A DNA stretch of 64,000 nucleotides from Candidatus Nitrosotalea bavarica (GTDB lineage Archaea; Thermoproteota; Nitrososphaeria; Nitrososphaerales; Nitrosopumilaceae), in NCBI RefSeq assembly GCF_900167955.1, contig NZ_FUYK01000003.1:124001-188000 (forward strand). The letters are read 5' to 3'. Under the pieces are notes generated by a model. It was not told the DNA's origin. It saw only the letters and a list, made by a program, of their open reading frames with translations, and made no database searches. Positions 7,133 to 33,921 of this stretch are shown here, piece after piece; within the stretch, counting starts at the first letter, position 1, and the number at the start of each line of letters is the position of its first letter. Both the position numbers and the translations under genes were made by a program.

Positions 7133-8818
7133 GTGACAATAATGGAGATATCAAGTAGAAACGTAGTAGAAGGTACAGCGAGGGCTCCACATCGAGCCAT
7201 GTACAAAGCAATGGGTCTAGATGATAATGATTTAGGAAAACCATTCATTGGAGTATCACATAGCGGAAATGAAGCTACACCGTGTAACATCCATCTTGGG
7301 AGATTGGCAACTCATGCAAAAGCAGGAGTAGAAAGCGCAGGAGGTACACCAAGAGAATTTTCAACAATTGCCGTAAGCGATGGAATTGCAATGGGGCATG
7401 AAGGTATGAAGTCATCTCTGGTCAGCAGAGAAATCATTGCAGATTCAATTGAATTAATGGTAAGAGCCCACCAGTATGACGGACTGGTTGGAATTGCAGG
7501 TTGTGACAAGAGTCTTCCAGGTACTATGATGGCAATGGCGCGTCTCAACTTACCATCAGTCTTTGTTTATGGAGGTACAATAATGCCAGGAGTTTACGAG
7601 GGAAAACAAGTAACAGTTCAAGATGTTTATGAAGCAGTTGGCGCATATGATGCAGGTAATTTAACATTAGAGGCACTGAAAAATTTAGAAAACGTAGCAT
7701 GTCCAAATTCTGGTTCATGTGGAGGAATGTATACTGCAAATACCATGGCATCAATTAGTGAGGCAATCGGAATAGCACTTCCAGGAAATGCATCGCCACC
7801 AGCAGAAGATCCAAGAAGAGAAAAAATGCTTTACGAAAGCGGAAAAGCTGTAATGAATTTACTTGAAAAGGGAATAAGACCAAAGGATATTTTGACATAT
7901 GAAGCATTTGAGAATGCAATTACAGTTGCCAATGCAATAGGAGGTTCAACAAATGCAGTATTGCATTTGCTTGCCCTATCACGTGAGATGGGAGTAAAAC
8001 TAGAACTGGATGACTTTGAGAGAATTAGAAGAAAGACACCACATCTTGCAGACATGAGACCAGGTGGGACATATGTCATGTTGGATCTTGACAAAATAGG
8101 CGGAATCCCACTATTGATGAAAAGTTTACAAAAGAAAAATCTCATAAATGAAAATATAATTACAGTTACAGGTAAGACAGTAAAACAGAATCTAGATTCA
8201 TTACAGATTTCATTTGATGTAAATCAGCAGGTCCTAAAATCAATCGAGTCCCCAATTCATGAAGTTGGAACTCTAACAATACTTAGAGGAACACTTGCAC
8301 CAGAAGGAGCAGTTGTAAAAGTTGCAGGAGTTCACACAAAAGAGTTTAGAGGAAGGGCCAAAGTATACGACAGAGAAGAAGATGCATTTGATGCAATATC
8401 AAAACGACAAATAAAGGAACACGATGTAGTAATCATACGATATGAAGGTCCAAAGGGAGGACCAGGTATGCGAGAGATGCTAGGAGTAACAGCTGCTCTT
8501 GTCGGACAAAACCTAGGTGAAAAAGTTGCATTGATAACAGATGGAAGATTTTCAGGCGCAACACGAGGTTTCATGATAGGACATGTTGCCCCAGAAGCGG
8601 CGGTGGGAGGAAATATTGCACTAGTCAATGAAGGAGATGAGATTGTAATCAATCTTGAAAAAAACACTATCGATATAATGGTACCAGAAAACGAACTTGC
8701 ACAAAGAAGAAAAGATTGGAAGCCAAGAAAACCAAATTATGAAAGTGGTGCTCTTGCAAAATATGCATCACTTGTAACTTCTGCCGCTGAAGGTGCAATT
8801 ACAAAACCAATCTGGTAA
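7133..8818 (+). CDS. ilvD: Dihydroxy-acid dehydratase
   Basis: A 561-residue IlvD/Edd family enzyme that dehydrates 2,3-dihydroxy-isovalerate and -methylvalerate to the 2-keto acids of valine and isoleucine. Cysteines that can ligate the Fe-S cluster are in [17 protein letters not shown] and [14 protein letters not shown]. Other signatures are [20 protein letters not shown] and [14 protein letters not shown] 7133 is the longest start and ATG 7142 (three codons later) is equally compatible with the TATA box. It lies away from the ilvBN-leuAB operon at 29-34 kb; ilvC and ilvE are not in the window. Confidence 0.97.
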
Positions 8819-27718: not shown

Positions 27719-28555
27719 ATGGATTGGGGACTCAAAAATAGACTTGCAAAAATAATCAAACCACAAAACAGACGTGGTGTAATGCTTGCAGTAGACCACG
27801 GATATTTTCTTGGACCTACAGAGAGATTAGAAGTACCCAAAAAAACCATAGCCCCATTATTACCTTTTGCAGATTCTCTTATGCTTACAAGAGGTGTTTT
27901 AAGAACATCCGTTGATGCAAATTTTCCAGTGCCCGTTGTGCTCAGAGTATCTGGAGGAGCAAGTATTATCGGAAAAGATCTTTCAAATGAAACAATAACC
28001 ACATCAGTAAAAGAGGCAATCAGATTAAATGTGTCTGCCATTGCAATGTCAATATTTATCGGTGCACCTCATGAACATGAATCGCTTGTCAGTTTAGGCA
28101 ATCTTGTAAATGAAGGTGAAGAATATGGAATACCCGTACTTGCCGTCACAGCAGTAGGAAAAGAATTAGAAAAACGTGATGCAAGATATTTGGGATTAGC
28201 ATGTAGAATGGCCGCAGAATTTGGGGCACATCTAGTCAAGACATACTATTGTGAGAACTTTGAAAAAGTAGTAACAGCATGTCCAGTGCCAGTCATAATT
28301 GCAGGAGGTCCAAAACTTGCAACAGAACTTGACGTGTTTAATCTAACACATGATGCATTACAAGCCGGGGCATCCGGAGTTGACATGGGACGAAACATTT
28401 GGCAAAACGATCATCCAGTAGCCATGATAAAGGCAGTAAGAGCAATAGTGCACCAAAAAGCCACAGTCAAAGAAGCCCATGAAATTTTCAAAAAAATAAA
28501 AAATGAAGCACCTGAAATAAATAAACCTACTCAAAAAAACAAATCAAAAAAATAA
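27719..28555 (+). CDS. DhnA/LsrF-type class I aldolase
   Basis: 278 residues of the class I aldolase (DhnA/LsrF) family. It matches the pattern of the bacterial autoinducer-2 thiolase LsrF over its length: LDWGL-type start (DWGLKNRLAKI), VMLAVDHGYFLGPT, SGGASIIGKDLSNE, KTYYCENFEKVV (catalytic lysine), IIAGGPK, GVDMGRNIWQND. Because AI-2 signalling is not known in Thaumarchaeota, the substrate may be a different phospho-diketone or sugar phosphate. A basic 20-residue tail is unique. It is downstream of the MDR dehydrogenase. Start at ATG 27719. Confidence 0.82.
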   Translation: MDWGLKNRLAKIIKPQNRRGVMLAVDHGYFLGPTERLEVPKKTIAPLLPFADSLMLTRGVLRTSVDANFPVPVVLRVSGGASIIGKDLSNETITTSVKEAIRLNVSAIAMSIFIGAPHEHESLVSLGNLVNEGEEYGIPVLAVTAVGKELEKRDARYLGLACRMAAEFGAHLVKTYYCENFEKVVTACPVPVIIAGGPKLATELDVFNLTHDALQAGASGVDMGRNIWQNDHPVAMIKAVRAIVHQKATVKEAHEIFKKIKNEAPEINKPTQKNKSKK

Positions 28556-29070: not shown

Positions 29071-29085
29071 CTTTATTAATAATTT
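29071..29085 (+). promoter_or_regulatory. TATA box of the ilvBN-leuAB operon
   Basis: CTTTATTAATAATTT at 29071-29085 is the only good TATA-like element in the intergenic region. Its centre is about 32 bases before ATG 29110 and 124 bases before ilvB, so the mRNA would start at or just before the small ORF and carry a leader of about 100 bases. Confidence 0.5.
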
Positions 29086-29109
29086 TAGAGAGAAAATCAT
29101 TAGATAAGT

Positions 29110-29172
29110 ATGAAAAAAGTAGACTCGACAAGCATTTCAAGTATTTTGTTGCTAGTCGAGGTTATGCTGTAA
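29110..29172 (+). CDS. Candidate leader peptide rich in branched-chain residues (ilvB attenuator)
   Basis: A 20-codon ORF (ATG 29110 to TAA 29172) that ends 29 bases before ilvB. Nine of 20 residues are Val, Ile or Leu: V4, I9, I12, L13, L14, L15, V16, V18, L20, including the run ILLLV (12-16). This is the composition of leader peptides controlling ilv and leu operons in bacteria by ribosome stalling. The ORF is predicted to be nearly leaderless. It overlaps with mutually exclusive hairpins (separate entry). Translation of the ORF and a regulatory role are inferences. Confidence 0.5.
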   Translation: MKKVDSTSISSILLLVEVML

Positions 29173-29191
29173 AACACAGCAATTTTCGGAG
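29124..29191 (+). promoter_or_regulatory. Possible attenuator hairpins and ilvB ribosome binding site
   Basis: Within the predicted ilvB leader: a 6-bp stem CTCGAC (29124-29129) with GTCGAG (29155-29160); a 6-bp hairpin TGCTGT (29165-29170) with ACAGCA (29176-29181), followed at 29183 by TTTT; and a competing pairing TTGCT (29149-29153) with AGCAA (29178-29182). GGAG at 29188-29191 is a Shine-Dalgarno-like site 10 bases before ATG 29202. The leader-peptide stop codon is within the second hairpin. Stems are short and the switching logic is not settled. Confidence 0.4.
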
Positions 29192-29201
29192 ATAGAAAAT
29201 T

Positions 29202-30890
29202 ATGGAAAAAATTTCAGGTGCAAGGGCTTTGATGATCGCTTTGGAAAAAGAGGGTGTGGATATTGCCTTCGGACTACCGGGAGGTGCAAACTTGCCAATA
29301 TACGACGAACTTTACAAAAGCAACATACGACATGTTCTAGTAAGACATGAACAATCTGCGTCGCACATGGCAGACGGTTATGGTAGAGTAAGTAGAAGAC
29401 CAGGAGTATGTTTTGCAACATCAGGTCCAGGTGCAACAAATATTGTAACTGGAATTGCAACAGCTCAGGCAGATTCTGCTCCAATGGTTGCAATCACAGG
29501 CCAAGTTCCTTCAAAAATGATTGGCCGTGATGCATTTCAAGAAAGTGATATAATCGGAATTACAAACCCTATCGTAAAATATGCATTTCAGCCAATGAGT
29601 CCAGGAGAAATTCCAGAAGTAGTAAAGAAGGCATTCTATATCGCATCAACTGGAAGACCTGGTCCTGTTTTGATAGACATTCCAAAAGATGTACAACAAA
29701 ATGAAGCAGAGATACAATTTCCTTCAGAGGTTAAAATTAGAGGATACCATCCATGGGTAGATCCTGACATAAAAGAAATTGAAAGAGCAACTGATATGTT
29801 ACTAGCTGCAGAAAGACCAATTATTCTTGCAGGCGGAGGAGTTATAATTTCAAGTGCATTTGCAGAACTTCAATCAATTGCAGAATTACTCATGATACCT
29901 GTTGTAACAACTTTCAAAGGAAAGGGTTCATTTCCAGAAAATCATCCACTTTCACTTGGACCAATTGGAATGCATGGACACGCAGAAGCAAATAAGATGA
30001 TGACTGAAGCTGACTGTGTACTAGCATGCGGTTCCAGATTTTCAGACAGGTCAGTTGGTACATTTGAAGAATTTGAGAGAAATTTGAAAATAATACACAT
30101 GGATGTAGATCCTGCAGAGATTGGAAAGAATCAGACTACACATGTAGCAGTAATTGGAGATGTAAAGACATCGCTTAGAATCATGGTAAAGATGCTAATC
30201 CAAAAGGCCATTAAACGAAATGGTGAAAACGCATGGGCAAAAAAAGTTAGAGAAACTAAAGAATACTATAGAGAAAATATCAAGATTCATCCACATCCAT
30301 TAGCAGCTTCCAAAGTTCTCAAAAAGTTAAGAGAGGTTCTTCCTGCACAATCAATTGTCACTACCGAAGTAGGCCAACATCAGATGTGGGCATCATTATT
30401 TTTTGATGTCATACATCCAGGCACATTCTTTAGCTCTACAGGTCTTGGAACAATGGGGTGGGGATTCCCAGCAGCGATAGGTGCCAAGGCTGCAAGACCC
30501 GATGTTCCAGTTTTAGATATTGCAGGAGAAGGAAGTTTTAACATGACAGAAAACTCACTTGCAGTTTCAGTATTAGAAGACTTGCCTGTTATTGTATTCT
30601 TGTTAAACAATTTCACACTTGGCATGGTAGCCCAATGGCAGAGAACATTTTATGACAGAAGGATGATAGGAGTAGACCTTAAGAATTGTCCAGATTATGT
30701 CAAAGTAGCAGAAGCATATGGCGCACAGGGAATAAGGGCTACTACTATTGATGAAATTGGAAAAGCAGTCCAGACAGCCTTGAAGAGTAACGTTACAACC
30801 GTAATAGACATACCAATTGATCCACAAGAAGACGTCTTTCCATTTGTGGCACCCGGAACATCTCTTAAGGACATGATCTTACCATCATAG
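29202..30890 (+). CDS. ilvB: Acetolactate synthase large subunit
   Basis: 562 residues. A thiamine-diphosphate- and FAD-dependent enzyme that condenses pyruvate with pyruvate or 2-ketobutyrate, the first common step of Val/Leu/Ile synthesis. The catalytic glutamate is in LVRHEQSASHMADGYGR, the ThDP-binding motif is AGEGSFNMTENSL (with GEG in place of GDG) through LNN, and GTFSSTGLGTMGWGFPAAIGA is diagnostic. Starts ATG 29202 preceded by a GGAG site. It leads the operon ilvB-ilvN-leuA-leuB; a branched-chain-rich leader ORF precedes it. Confidence 0.96.
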   Translation: MEKISGARALMIALEKEGVDIAFGLPGGANLPIYDELYKSNIRHVLVRHEQSASHMADGYGRVSRRPGVCFATSGPGATNIVTGIATAQADSAPMVAITGQVPSKMIGRDAFQESDIIGITNPIVKYAFQPMSPGEIPEVVKKAFYIASTGRPGPVLIDIPKDVQQNEAEIQFPSEVKIRGYHPWVDPDIKEIERATDMLLAAERPIILAGGGVIISSAFAELQSIAELLMIPVVTTFKGKGSFPENHPLSLGPIGMHGHAEANKMMTEADCVLACGSRFSDRSVGTFEEFERNLKIIHMDVDPAEIGKNQTTHVAVIGDVKTSLRIMVKMLIQKAIKRNGENAWAKKVRETKEYYRENIKIHPHPLAASKVLKKLREVLPAQSIVTTEVGQHQMWASLFFDVIHPGTFFSSTGLGTMGWGFPAAIGAKAARPDVPVLDIAGEGSFNMTENSLAVSVLEDLPVIVFLLNNFTLGMVAQWQRTFYDRRMIGVDLKNCPDYVKVAEAYGAQGIRATTIDEIGKAVQTALKSNVTTVIDIPIDPQEDVFPFVAPGTSLKDMILPS

Positions 30891-30899
30891 TGAAATAAC

Positions 30900-31391
30900 A
30901 TGTGGTCGATAATTTCCGTTCTAGTAGAAAACAAACCAGGTGTCTTGTTCAAGATTACAAACTTGTTCCGATCAAGAAACTATAACATTGACAGCATATC
31001 TGTAGGAATAACTGAAAATCCCGAAATCTCTAGAATGACAATTACTACAGAGGCAGATGAAAAACAGCTAAATCAAATAATAAAACAACTAGACAAGTTG
31101 ATTGATACGATAGAAGTAAAACTATTAGACGAGAAGAAGAGCATATACAGAGAACTTGTCATGATGAAGATTAAAGTATCAAAACCAACTGACATCAAGG
31201 AGATAACAGACCTTGCAAACGCCTTCAAGTGTGACGTTCATGATGTCAGAAAATCTTCTATCATATTAGAGATAACTGCAACACCAGATAGAATTAATGC
31301 CCTAGAAGACCTTGTCAGAGGATATGGAATCCTTGAAATGGCAAGAACTGGAATATGTGCATTAGCAAGAGGAGAAAGAAGTGAAAGTTAG
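30900..31391 (+). CDS. ilvN: Acetolactate synthase small (regulatory) subunit
   Basis: 163 residues: an N-terminal ACT domain (about 3-75; ISVLVENKPGVLFKITNLF) that binds branched-chain amino acids for feedback inhibition, and a C-terminal IlvN-type domain (ELVMMKIKV ... GILEMARTGICALARGE). It lies 9 bases after ilvB and overlaps the GTG start of leuA by 11 bases. Confidence 0.95.
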   Translation: MWSIISVLVENKPGVLFKITNLFRSRNYNIDSISVGITENPEISRMTITTEADEKQLNQIIKQLDKLIDTIEVKLLDEKKSIYRELVMMKIKVSKPTDIKEITDLANAFKCDVHDVRKSSIILEITATPDRINALEDLVRGYGILEMARTGICALARGERSES

Positions 31392-32904
31392 AATTTTTGA
31401 TACCACATTAAGAGACGGAGAGCAGACACCAGGTGTAGCCTTGACTCCAGACCAGAAACTTGTGATAGCACAAAAATTAGACGAGCTTGGTGTTGATGCA
31501 ATAGAAGCAGGTTTTCCAATCATTTCAGAAGGAGAGATGATAGCAATCAAGTCCATAACAGGAGCAGGTTTGAAAGCAGAGATTTGTGGACTAGCACGAA
31601 CAGAAAAGAAAGACATTGATGCAGCTGTAGCAGTTGGGTTAAAGTACATCCACACATTCATTGCAACTTCAGACATACATCTCAAGTACAAGCTAAAATT
31701 AACCCGAGAGCAGGCATTAGAAAAAGCAGTGGAAGCAGTTCAATACGCCAAGTCACTTGGTTTACAAGTTGAATTTTCAGCAGAAGATGCTACAAGGACG
31801 GATAGAGAATTTCTAAAAAAAGTATTCAAAGCGGTAACAGAAGCAGGAGCAGACAGATTAGACATACCAGATACAGTAGGCTATTCCACTCCACAATATA
31901 TTGCTGAAATTACAAGGGATACAATTGAGGCAACGCACCTACCAGTAAGTGTTCACTGCCATAACGATTTTGGTTTAGCTGTAGCAAATGCATTATCTGC
32001 AATACAAGCAGGTGCAAAATGTGCACATGTTACAATCAACGGAATAGGAGAGAGGGCAGGTAATGCATCTTTAGAAGAACTAGTAATGGGATTACAATGT
32101 CTACAATGGGACAAGGATAGAAAGTTTGAGACAAATATTAACACTAAACTTCTTTATGAGACTTCACGGTTTATCTCAAAGATAGTAGGAGTTCAGGTTC
32201 AGCCAAACAAAGCAATCGTGGGAGAAAATGCATTTGGTCATGAATCAGGAATTCATACACATGGTGTGTTGAGCAATCCATTAACCTATGAACCAATCAG
32301 TCCTGAGCTTGTGGGTAGAACAAGATGGTTCCAAGTAGGAAAACATGCAGGAGCACATGGAGTTTCTGCCATGCTTGAAGAATATGGTATCCAACCTTCA
32401 AAAGAACAGGCGCATGAAATTTTAGAGAAGATCAAAAAGCTTGGAGACCTAGGAAAACATGTAACAGATGTTGAGCTTTTAGGAATTGCAGGAGAGGTAA
32501 TGCAGCAACAAGGATTAAAGAGACTAGTCCACCTCGTAGGTTTTTCAGTATCAACAGGAATTGGAAATATGCCATATGCATTTGTAAAATTAAACATTGA
32601 AGGAAAAGACTTTATCAGTACAGACTATGGCGTGGGTCCAGTAGATGCGTCAATTAATGCAATCCAGAAAATTACTGGAGAAATATCCAAAGTCAGAGTA
32701 AAAGATTACAAGTTAGATTCAATCTCTGGAGGTTCTGAGGCATTATGTGAAGTTACCATTAAAGTGGAAGACGCATATGGAAACCAAGCCTCTGCAAAAT
32801 CAGTAGGAGAAGATATCGTAATTACAAGTGTACAAGCAGTTATAGATGGAATAAACAGAATTATGCTCAAAAAAATTCTCAAACAAAAAAACTTGGGACA
32901 GTAA
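31381..32904 (+). CDS. leuA: 2-isopropylmalate synthase (or citramalate/homocitrate synthase family)
   Basis: 507 residues. Catalytic TIM barrel with RIFDTTLRDGEQTPGV (metal/general base), HCHNDFGLAVAN (metal ligands) and NGIGERAGNASLEE. The C-terminal allosteric LeuA domain spans about 390-500. It condenses acetyl-CoA with a 2-keto acid. The leuB neighbour and the ilvBN context favour isopropylmalate synthase, but citramalate synthase (a route to isoleucine) cannot be excluded by sequence. GTG start at 31381 overlaps ilvN. The stop is immediately followed by leuB ATG. Confidence 0.87.
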   Translation: MKVRIFDTTLRDGEQTPGVALTPDQKLVIAQKLDELGVDAIEAGFPIISEGEMIAIKSITGAGLKAEICGLARTEKKDIDAAVAVGLKYIHTFIATSDIHLKYKLKLTREQALEKAVEAVQYAKSLGLQVEFSAEDATRTDREFLKKVFKAVTEAGADRLDIPDTVGYSTPQYIAEITRDTIEATHLPVSVHCHNDFGLAVANALSAIQAGAKCAHVTINGIGERAGNASLEELVMGLQCLQWDKDRKFETNINTKLLYETSRFISKIVGVQVQPNKAIVGENAFGHESGIHTHGVLSNPLTYEPISPELVGRTRWFQVGKHAGAHGVSAMLEEYGIQPSKEQAHEILEKIKKLGDLGKHVTDVELLGIAGEVMQQQGLKRLVHLVGFSVSTGIGNMPYAFVKLNIEGKDFISTDYGVGPVDASINAIQKITGEISKVRVKDYKLDSISGGSEALCEVTIKVEDAYGNQASAKSVGEDIVITSVQAVIDGINRIMLKKILKQKNLGQ

Positions 32905-33921
32905 ATGTATAAAATATCACTTATCACCGGAGATGGAATAGGTCCGGAATTATCAGAATCAGTAATCGAGGTCTTGAATGCAGTAAATGACAAATTTGGA
33001 GTAAAGTTAGACATTACAAAATTAGAAGCAGGTGATGCAGCACTCAAGAAAACAGGAAAGGCGCTTCCAGATGAGACATTAGATATAATAAAAAAGTCCG
33101 ATGCATGCCTCAAGGCACCTGTTGGCGAAAGTGCTGCAGATGTAATTGTAGTATTGCGAAGATTATTGGACCTTTATGCAAACATCAGACCTGCTAAATC
33201 TTATCCAAACATGCCAGCATTGAAGGAAAACATAGACATGGTAATAGTAAGAGAAAACACAGAAGATCTATACACAGGAATGGAATTTGACATTGGAGAG
33301 ACATCTATTGCATTACGTACAATCTCAAAGAGAGCATCAGAAAGAATTGCAAAATATGCATTTATGACAGCAGAGCAACGAAATGGGAAGAGAAAGGTAA
33401 CTTGTGTCCACAAATCAAACGTGATGAAAAAGACAGATGGGTTATTCTCAAGGTCATGCCAAGAAGTAGCAAAGAATTATCCAGAAATTTCATTTGAACA
33501 GATGTATGTTGATGCATGTGCCATGAATCTAATAAGACAGCCAGAGTCTTTTGATGTCATAGTAACTACCAATTTGTTTGGAGATATTTTATCAGATGAG
33601 GCATCACAGGTTGCAGGCGGACTAGGAATGGCACCAGCAGCAAACATCGGAGACAAATTTGCGTTATTTGAACCAGTTCATGGTGCAGCATTTGACATAG
33701 CAGGAAAACAAGTTGCAAATCCATCCTCATTTATCTTGTCTGCAAAAATGATGTTTGAGTGGCTCGGAATGAAAAACAATGACAAGTCGTGTTATGATAT
33801 AGCAAAAAAGATAGAAGATGCAGTATATGGAGTTGTCAAAGAAGGAATAAAGACAAAAGACATTGGCGGCAACAAGAGTACTAAAGAATTCACACAGAGC
33901 ATAGTATTACGTATTATTTGA
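32905..33921 (+). CDS. leuB: 3-isopropylmalate dehydrogenase (isocitrate/isopropylmalate dehydrogenase family)
   Basis: 338 residues of the beta-decarboxylating dehydrogenase family. GDGIGPE at the N-terminus, RENTEDLYTG (substrate loop), the catalytic Lys/Tyr region, and DILSDEASQVAGGLGMAPAAN are typical. Length fits isopropylmalate or homoisocitrate dehydrogenase rather than the longer archaeal isocitrate dehydrogenase. It starts directly at the leuA stop (no gap), consistent with LeuB. leuC and leuD are not in the window. It overlaps the convergent zinc/TM gene by 8 bases. Confidence 0.85.
   Translation: MYKISLITGDGIGPELSESVIEVLNAVNDKFGVKLDITKLEAGDAALKKTGKALPDETLDIIKKSDACLKAPVGESAADVIVVLRRLLDLYANIRPAKSYPNMPALKENIDMVIVRENTEDLYTGMEFDIGETSIALRTISKRASERIAKYAFMTAEQRNGKRKVTCVHKSNVMKKTDGLFSRSCQEVAKNYPEISFEQMYVDACAMNLIRQPESFDVIVTTNLFGDILSDEASQVAGGLGMAPAANIGDKFALFEPVHGAAFDIAGKQVANPSSFILSAKMMFEWLGMKNNDKSCYDIAKKIEDAVYGVVKEGIKTKDIGGNKSTKEFTQSIVLRII

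Follow-up and report, generated by a model that had tools for sequence, protein, structure and literature searches.

Results

A short ORF rich in branched-chain codons precedes the ilvBN-leuAB operon

The window analyzed here, a 64,000-nt stretch of DNA, comes from a Nitrosotalea species with an archaeal genome of 1.55 Mb, the nearest named relative being Candidatus Nitrosotalea devanaterra (96% identity in IlvB). Four genes follow one another on its plus strand: ilvB, encoding the acetolactate synthase large subunit (29202..30890; TIGR00118, 719 bits against a cut-off of 538); ilvN, encoding the small subunit (30900..31391; TIGR00119, 180 bits, cut-off 57); a leuA-like gene of the isopropylmalate synthase family (31381..32904; NF002085, 642 bits, cut-off 517, with TIGR02090 also above its cut-off); and a leuB-like gene of the isopropylmalate/isohomocitrate dehydrogenase family LEU3_arch (32905..33921; TIGR02088, 419 bits, cut-off 410). 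The curated models bear out the order and identities that an earlier reading of the same DNA, hereafter the original prediction, had given to an ilvB-ilvN-leuA-leuB operon. The GTG start of leuA lies inside the end of ilvN (31381-31391), and this 11-nt overlap suggests translational coupling.

Upstream of the ilvB start codon (ATG at 29202) lies an ORF of 20 codons, MKKVDSTSISSILLLVEVML (29110..29172, plus strand), with nine valine, isoleucine, or leucine residues (V/I/L) and its stop 29 nt before ilvB, as originally described; it is referred to below as the leader. Directly before the stop stands a block of presumed control codons, I-L-L-L-V-E-V-M-L (29143..29169, plus strand), which includes the I-L-L-L-V run that had been pointed out. 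The TATA box reported for this promoter of leader and operon was likewise found (29071..29085, plus strand; TTTATT from 29072), 38 nt 5′ of the leader ATG. Such a TATA-like box precedes the ATG in 107 of 112 leaders, at a spacing of nearly always 30–39 nt. Because the TATA-like motifs of other genes peak 27–31 nt 5′ of their ATG, the 5′ end of the leader probably comprises only a few nucleotides, and from the TATA spacing we estimate that transcription would start at about 29100-29105.

As had been noted from its GGAG motif, ilvB has a Shine-Dalgarno (SD) site of its own, GGAGA (29188..29192, plus strand). An SD-like site was scored for all 32 Nitrosotalea ilvB leaders versus 53 of 335 genes sampled from the genus, as expected if ilvB is read from a longer mRNA. 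No such leader was found for ilvC and ilvD of the genus, both of which look leaderless; in the window, ilvD (7187-8806) follows a leaderless-looking promoter, TATAAAATAG, without a leader ORF. A separate observation concerns window positions 27719-28555, where a predicted aldolase scored above the cut-off for 3-hydroxy-5-phosphonooxypentane-2,4-dione thiolase (LsrF type), which is unexpected in an archaeon.

The leader is conserved across Nitrososphaerales

DNA upstream of ilvB was collected from the genus, the family, and the order, giving 137 loci in total. A leader was defined as an ATG-initiated ORF of 12–26 codons that ends 20–70 nt 5′ of ilvB. For the statistics, leaders were picked with V/I/L content as a tie-breaker and with at least one V/I/L among the last three residues, which introduces a mild bias; the unfiltered ORF list gave the same leaders. 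Counterparts were present at 113 of the 137 loci, in 16 lineages and as 97 different peptides, a second family (Nitrososphaera-like, f11) included. Examples, given here up to the stop codon, are MTKVDSTSISSILLLVELVL and MKLGGSASISGILLLVDLLL in Nitrosotalea, MTIYSSTAPTVLLLVELVL in the Nitrosotenuis-like lineage, MSTKITGKLGVLLLVDLVL in lineage g10, MSTKLTGPISKNLQVVVLL in the Nitrosopumilus-like lineage (g14), MINPVAASSILLLEVLY at locus L193, and MPHTGSERSRHKVKILVLLLLA in f11; the leader at L213 ends in AAVVMLL, and three further similar leaders (L155-L157) have TTG in place of ATG. The distance from the leader stop to ilvB is 26–69 nt across lineages. DNA 5′ of the leader diverges between species, and the leader itself varies in N terminus and length (12–22 codons), while the V/I/L block keeps its frame relative to the stop. 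A search of plasmids for horizontal spread of the leader returned no match.

V/I/L codons are enriched in frame beside the stop codon

Counted backwards from the stop, the V/I/L frequency is 90, 78, 91, 30, 95, 78, 82, 68, and 61% and then drops; the exception within the block, position −4, is mostly Asp or Glu. Over the last nine codons, V/I/L account for 0.50–0.85 of residues by lineage in frame 0 versus 0.24–0.35 in base-shuffled sequences, and for 0.00–0.41 in the other reading frames, apart from a single frame in g19, a lineage with two sequences. In the Nitrosopumilus-like g14 and in g10, the in-frame values of 0.59 and 0.85 compare with 0.20–0.28 in the other frames and 0.32–0.35 after shuffling, although the RNA helix of these two lineages does not use those codons. 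Within Nitrosotalea and its nearest relatives, stop codons exchange at the same place (TAA 24, TAG 13, TGA 1) and codons 18-19 vary among Leu, Val, Ile, and Met. As judged from these alignments, the conserved feature is the composition beside the stop, not the sequence.

The V/I/L content of the leader in a single genome is mildly unusual (binomial p of 0.02); the case rests on conservation. Of 222 candidate upstream ORFs (uORFs; 669 genes, two 400-kb samples), 2 have at least seven V/I/L among their last nine codons, one of them being the present leader. Among 23 uORFs with a TATA box in the 400-kb samples of Nitrosotalea and a Nitrosopumilus-like genome, none was a convincing leader for another amino acid.

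The leader pN/pS is 0.4–0.9, and among changing residues the fraction going from V/I/L to V/I/L is 0.36 versus 0.33 expected, near chance. Such values indicate that the exact peptide matters little, which fits a sensor and not a trans-acting peptide. If the leader encoded a conserved, small hydrophobic protein with a function in trans, the hydrophobic C terminus of all lineages would be explained; we nevertheless consider this hardly credible, since the hydrophobic run spans only some nine residues, the N terminus is unconserved, the constraint is as weak as just described, and the leader is invariably placed just 5′ of ilvB. Another thinkable cause of stalling is arrest of the nascent peptide at the stop codon by a free amino acid, in the manner of TnaC or the fungal arginine attenuator. 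Leu is the last residue of 87 of the 97 unique peptides, and V-D/E-L commonly precedes it, which speaks for such an arrest peptide. Fixed critical residues at a set distance from the stall site are nonetheless missing, the hydrophobic class alone being conserved across lineages: the Nitrosopumilus-like leaders have no D/E, and those of the second family end in A, S, or F. Weak amino-acid constraint and a preference for rare codons speak against arrest as well, making it very improbable. That preference is marked, with CTG used for 37% of Leu in leaders versus 7% in genes and GTC for 49% of Val versus 14%; RNA pairing may explain part of it.

Bases following the leader stop are predicted to pair with the leader

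RNA of 29098-29201 folds better than all 200 of its dinucleotide shuffles (z = −4.2). The stem originally proposed inside the ORF, 29124-29129/29155-29160 (plus strand), is present and extended by 29131-29133/29151-29153; in this stem, S1, 92% of the cells scored over 35 sequences are paired, with mostly G-C/G-U type changes and no double changes, and 95% are paired in the Nitrosotenuis-like lineage. The stop codon sits at the loop edge of a second hairpin, S2 (TGCTGT/ACAGCA, 29165-29170/29176-29181, plus strand), for which 98% of cells are paired, and 100% in the Nitrosotenuis-like lineage. Elsewhere the S2 equivalents differ in sequence and keep the pairing (CAGTGCT/GGCGCTG, TTGTGC/GCACAA, and TTCTGT/ACAGAA). 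Double changes in S1 and S2 are almost absent within lineages. A possible weak hairpin, S3 (AATTTTC/GAAAATT, 29181-29187/29195-29201, plus strand), holds the ilvB ribosome-binding site in its loop; 81% of its cells are paired and two pairs have changes on both sides, and the Nitrosotenuis-like lineage does not conserve it in this form.

S2 had been described as a hairpin followed by TTTT and opposed by an alternative pairing. The hairpin itself holds up. Its short U-run (29183..29186, plus strand) is 2–5 T long across the genus and too weak for a terminator call, and the T-run after the helix is 2–6 across lineages, mostly 3–5. The competing pairing, 29149-29153/29178-29182, had 83% of cells paired, no double changes, and a score below its shuffles; moreover, it sits under the very ribosome that would need to induce it. 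A terminator scan of the window region found nothing. A classical terminator/antiterminator attenuator is not supported: its antiterminator pairing is not conserved, the terminator scan was negative, and the U-run is weak.

What recurs in nearly all lineages is a predicted, co-varying helix between the leader and the approximately 16–30 nt 3′ of its stop. Of 107 folds, 96 have the first 16 nt after the stop paired with leader bases, and all 16 lineages have a negative mean fold z-score. The helix comes in two versions. In the S2 version (Nitrosotalea, the Nitrosotenuis-like lineage, g12, and g13), the post-stop arm pairs with the last codons, for example, GCTGTAA..ACAGC; in the P0 version (g10, the Nitrosopumilus-like g14, g4, g16, and f11), its partner is the region of the start codon, for example, ATGAGCAC/GTGCTC. 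Between lineages the arms change in a compensatory manner (GAGCAC/GTGCTC, GAGCAAA/TTTGCTC, GAATACAC/GTGTGTTC, GACCACA/TGTGGTC, GACTGAT/GTCAGTC, and ATGCCT/AGGCGT), and when partners were swapped, native arms did better than those of other lineages in 14 of 16 lineages (below 0.5). In the comparison with relatives proposed at the outset, therefore, the ORF and its V/I/L codons were kept at 113 of 137 loci and the stem changes proved compensatory between lineages.

Strong folds and conserved inverted repeats would also be expected of a structured regulatory RNA (a riboswitch or tRNA sensor) or of an inverted-repeat DNA operator, with the ORF as a by-product. This has little to recommend it: the type of structure changes between lineages while the in-frame V/I/L codons and the stop persist, the helix of the P0 lineages excludes the V/I/L codons, and Rfam at its gathering threshold gave no match in ten representatives and nothing beyond sub-threshold matches in the window region.

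A ribosome on the last leader codons is predicted to occlude the helix

Each leader was then folded with pairing barred across the ribosome footprint, taken as the stretch from 12 nt behind the P-site to 15 nt ahead of it. In this model of the Nitrosotalea leader, the probability of the post-stop helix fell from 0.48 to 0.01–0.18 when any of codons −1 to −5 occupied the A-site, and was back at 0.45 with codon −6 or one further back; a stalled ribosome is thus predicted to abolish the helix. The response was broadly alike in g15, g10, g13, and f11, and confined to the last two or three codons in g14 and g4. The codons whose occupancy blocks the helix are those richest in V/I/L. These folds fit a two-state design, simpler than a terminator/antiterminator switch, in which a ribosome on the last codons would occlude the post-stop helix.

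The same sensor might act on translation, as in ermC: the post-stop helix, stacked on the weak hairpin around the ribosome-binding site, would hinder ilvB initiation, and a stalled ribosome would open it. In keeping with this, an SD precedes ilvB in lineages most of whose genes lack one, and S2 of Nitrosotalea abuts the hairpin whose loop contains the SD and of which two pairs are doubly changed. We nevertheless consider it unlikely. In the model, ribosome position has little and no consistent effect on how open the SD and start codon are; other lineages have not kept the SD hairpin; and an SD precedes ilvB in 0 of 12 g10 leaders and 1 of 18 g14 leaders. SD sequestration as the main switch was rejected because the modelled openness does not track ribosome position. 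The small change in openness favors RNA polymerase as the target of the read-out, by pausing or termination and perhaps with FttA/aCPSF1 involved; we lean slightly toward this over an effect on translation or RNA stability.

Altogether, we consider it probable (about 0.7) that the archaeal ilvBN-leuAB operon has a leader-peptide attenuator. With transcription starting a few nucleotides 5′ of the leader ATG, the first ribosome would load almost at the 5′ end and trail RNA polymerase. When charged Leu, Val, and Ile tRNAs are plentiful, it would complete the leader and depart, the post-stop bases would pair with the last codons (S2) or the start region (P0), and the helix would reduce operon expression. 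When charged tRNAs are scarce, the ribosome would wait on the rare Val and Leu codons of the last approximately five positions, its footprint would cover the helix arm, and the operon would be expressed. The scheme takes three steps by inference: that the leader is translated, that uncharged tRNA stalls the ribosome, and how the signal is read out. The core of the original prediction, a cognate-codon leader controlling the branched-chain operon, is supported by conservation and compensatory stems; its terminator/antiterminator switch is not, given the weak U-run and the unconserved pairing. A broader proposition, which we regard as an even bet, is that a near-leaderless leader sensing Val, Leu, and Ile is widespread and ancient in ammonia-oxidizing archaea, with its start codon often paired to post-stop bases and the ribosome itself serving as the antiterminator.

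Discussion

In bacteria, the control of amino acid operons by ribosome-mediated attenuation is textbook knowledge. In the enterobacterial ilv and leu attenuators (ilvGMEDA, ilvBN, and leuABCD), a leader peptide with cognate codons heads a branched-chain operon, which is regulated via ribosome position, as is proposed for the archaeal leader. Unlike these, the archaeal locus has no conserved antiterminator or strong terminator, and its control codons adjoin the stop, inside or beside the helix. On the best reading, the archaeal leader works like a bacterial leader-peptide attenuator, though not one of the classical terminator/antiterminator type.

The nearest described relatives are the actinobacterial ilvB leaders of Corynebacterium, Mycobacterium, and Streptomyces (PMC1262725, PMC11857589), which also combine a short ORF, runs of Ile/Val/Leu codons, a hairpin overlap, and the same operon function, and for which comparative description likewise gave no clear antiterminator. 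Their hairpins are followed by poly-U runs, whereas the archaeal U-run is weak and the arm often pairs with the leader start codon. The mechanism of the actinobacterial leaders is also disputed, codon substitutions in the Streptomyces coelicolor ilvB leader being reported to have no effect (PMC1262725). Mycobacterial cys leader peptides similarly have cognate codons close to the stop and no obvious terminator (PMC1262725), but no conserved helix was found for them, and both the amino acid and the domain of life differ. Translational attenuation of the ermC type (PMC10219788) shares the stalling of a ribosome in a leader ORF that reshapes local mRNA structure; there, arrest is induced by a drug and exposure of the ribosome-binding site is central, whereas such exposure is not predicted for the archaeal leader.

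Archaeal termination relies on U-rich tracts and FttA/aCPSF1, with possible exclusion by coupled ribosomes; the review of archaeal transcription-translation coupling that describes this never mentions attenuation (PMC8116511). One general statement in the literature holds that uORFs regulate in archaea and names no such example. In agreement with the original prediction, no described case of archaeal ribosome-mediated attenuation was found in the open-access literature searched. The present comparison, made at the level of sequence, suggests that ammonia-oxidizing archaea use the translating ribosome as an amino acid sensor, as so far described in bacteria. If true, no family of ribosome-mediated attenuators would have been demonstrated in Archaea before this one, and functional coupling of transcription and translation would be implied for this phylum. 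With a conserved case at hand in ammonia oxidizers that are abundant and can be cultured, two questions become testable: whether the coupling of archaeal ribosomes and polymerases is tight enough for regulation, and how translation controls archaeal termination. The proposed design is simple, namely ribosome occlusion without an antiterminator, and related lineages show two structural versions of it.

The leader has no counterpart in g3, g7, g8, g11, and g20, in six g14 species, and in several f11 members, whether through loss or original absence, so it is dispensable or replaced there. Five Nitrosopumilus-like loci (L176, L177, L179, L185, and L190) have neither the leader nor its TATA box but retain the AT-rich element proximal to ilvB; the attenuator has apparently been lost there. 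In g10, g12, g13, and most of g14, ilvB has no SD, and most carry TTAAAATT 24–25 nt 5′ of the ATG; at this distance a TTAACACATTAAAATTATGG element is conserved in L139-L149 and L175-L198 (Nitrosopumilus-like and related). This proximal TTAACACATTAAAATTATGG/TTAAAATT element may be a second, leaderless ilvB promoter in Nitrosopumilus-like genomes, which would bypass the leader. In g10, the ATGG of the element opens a 7-codon mini-ORF ending one base before the ilvB ATG. The two g19 loci (L214 and L215) have shorter leaders, MTTATQTLLVLS and MTTTTQLLLVLF, and a self-contained GC hairpin (GCGCGT..ACGCGC) that begins at the leader stop codon. Finally, ORFs before ilvB in family f10 (L199, L200, and L204) share a stretch rich in V/I/L/G, for example, MVGIIISLGLN, and may represent a more distant version of the leader.
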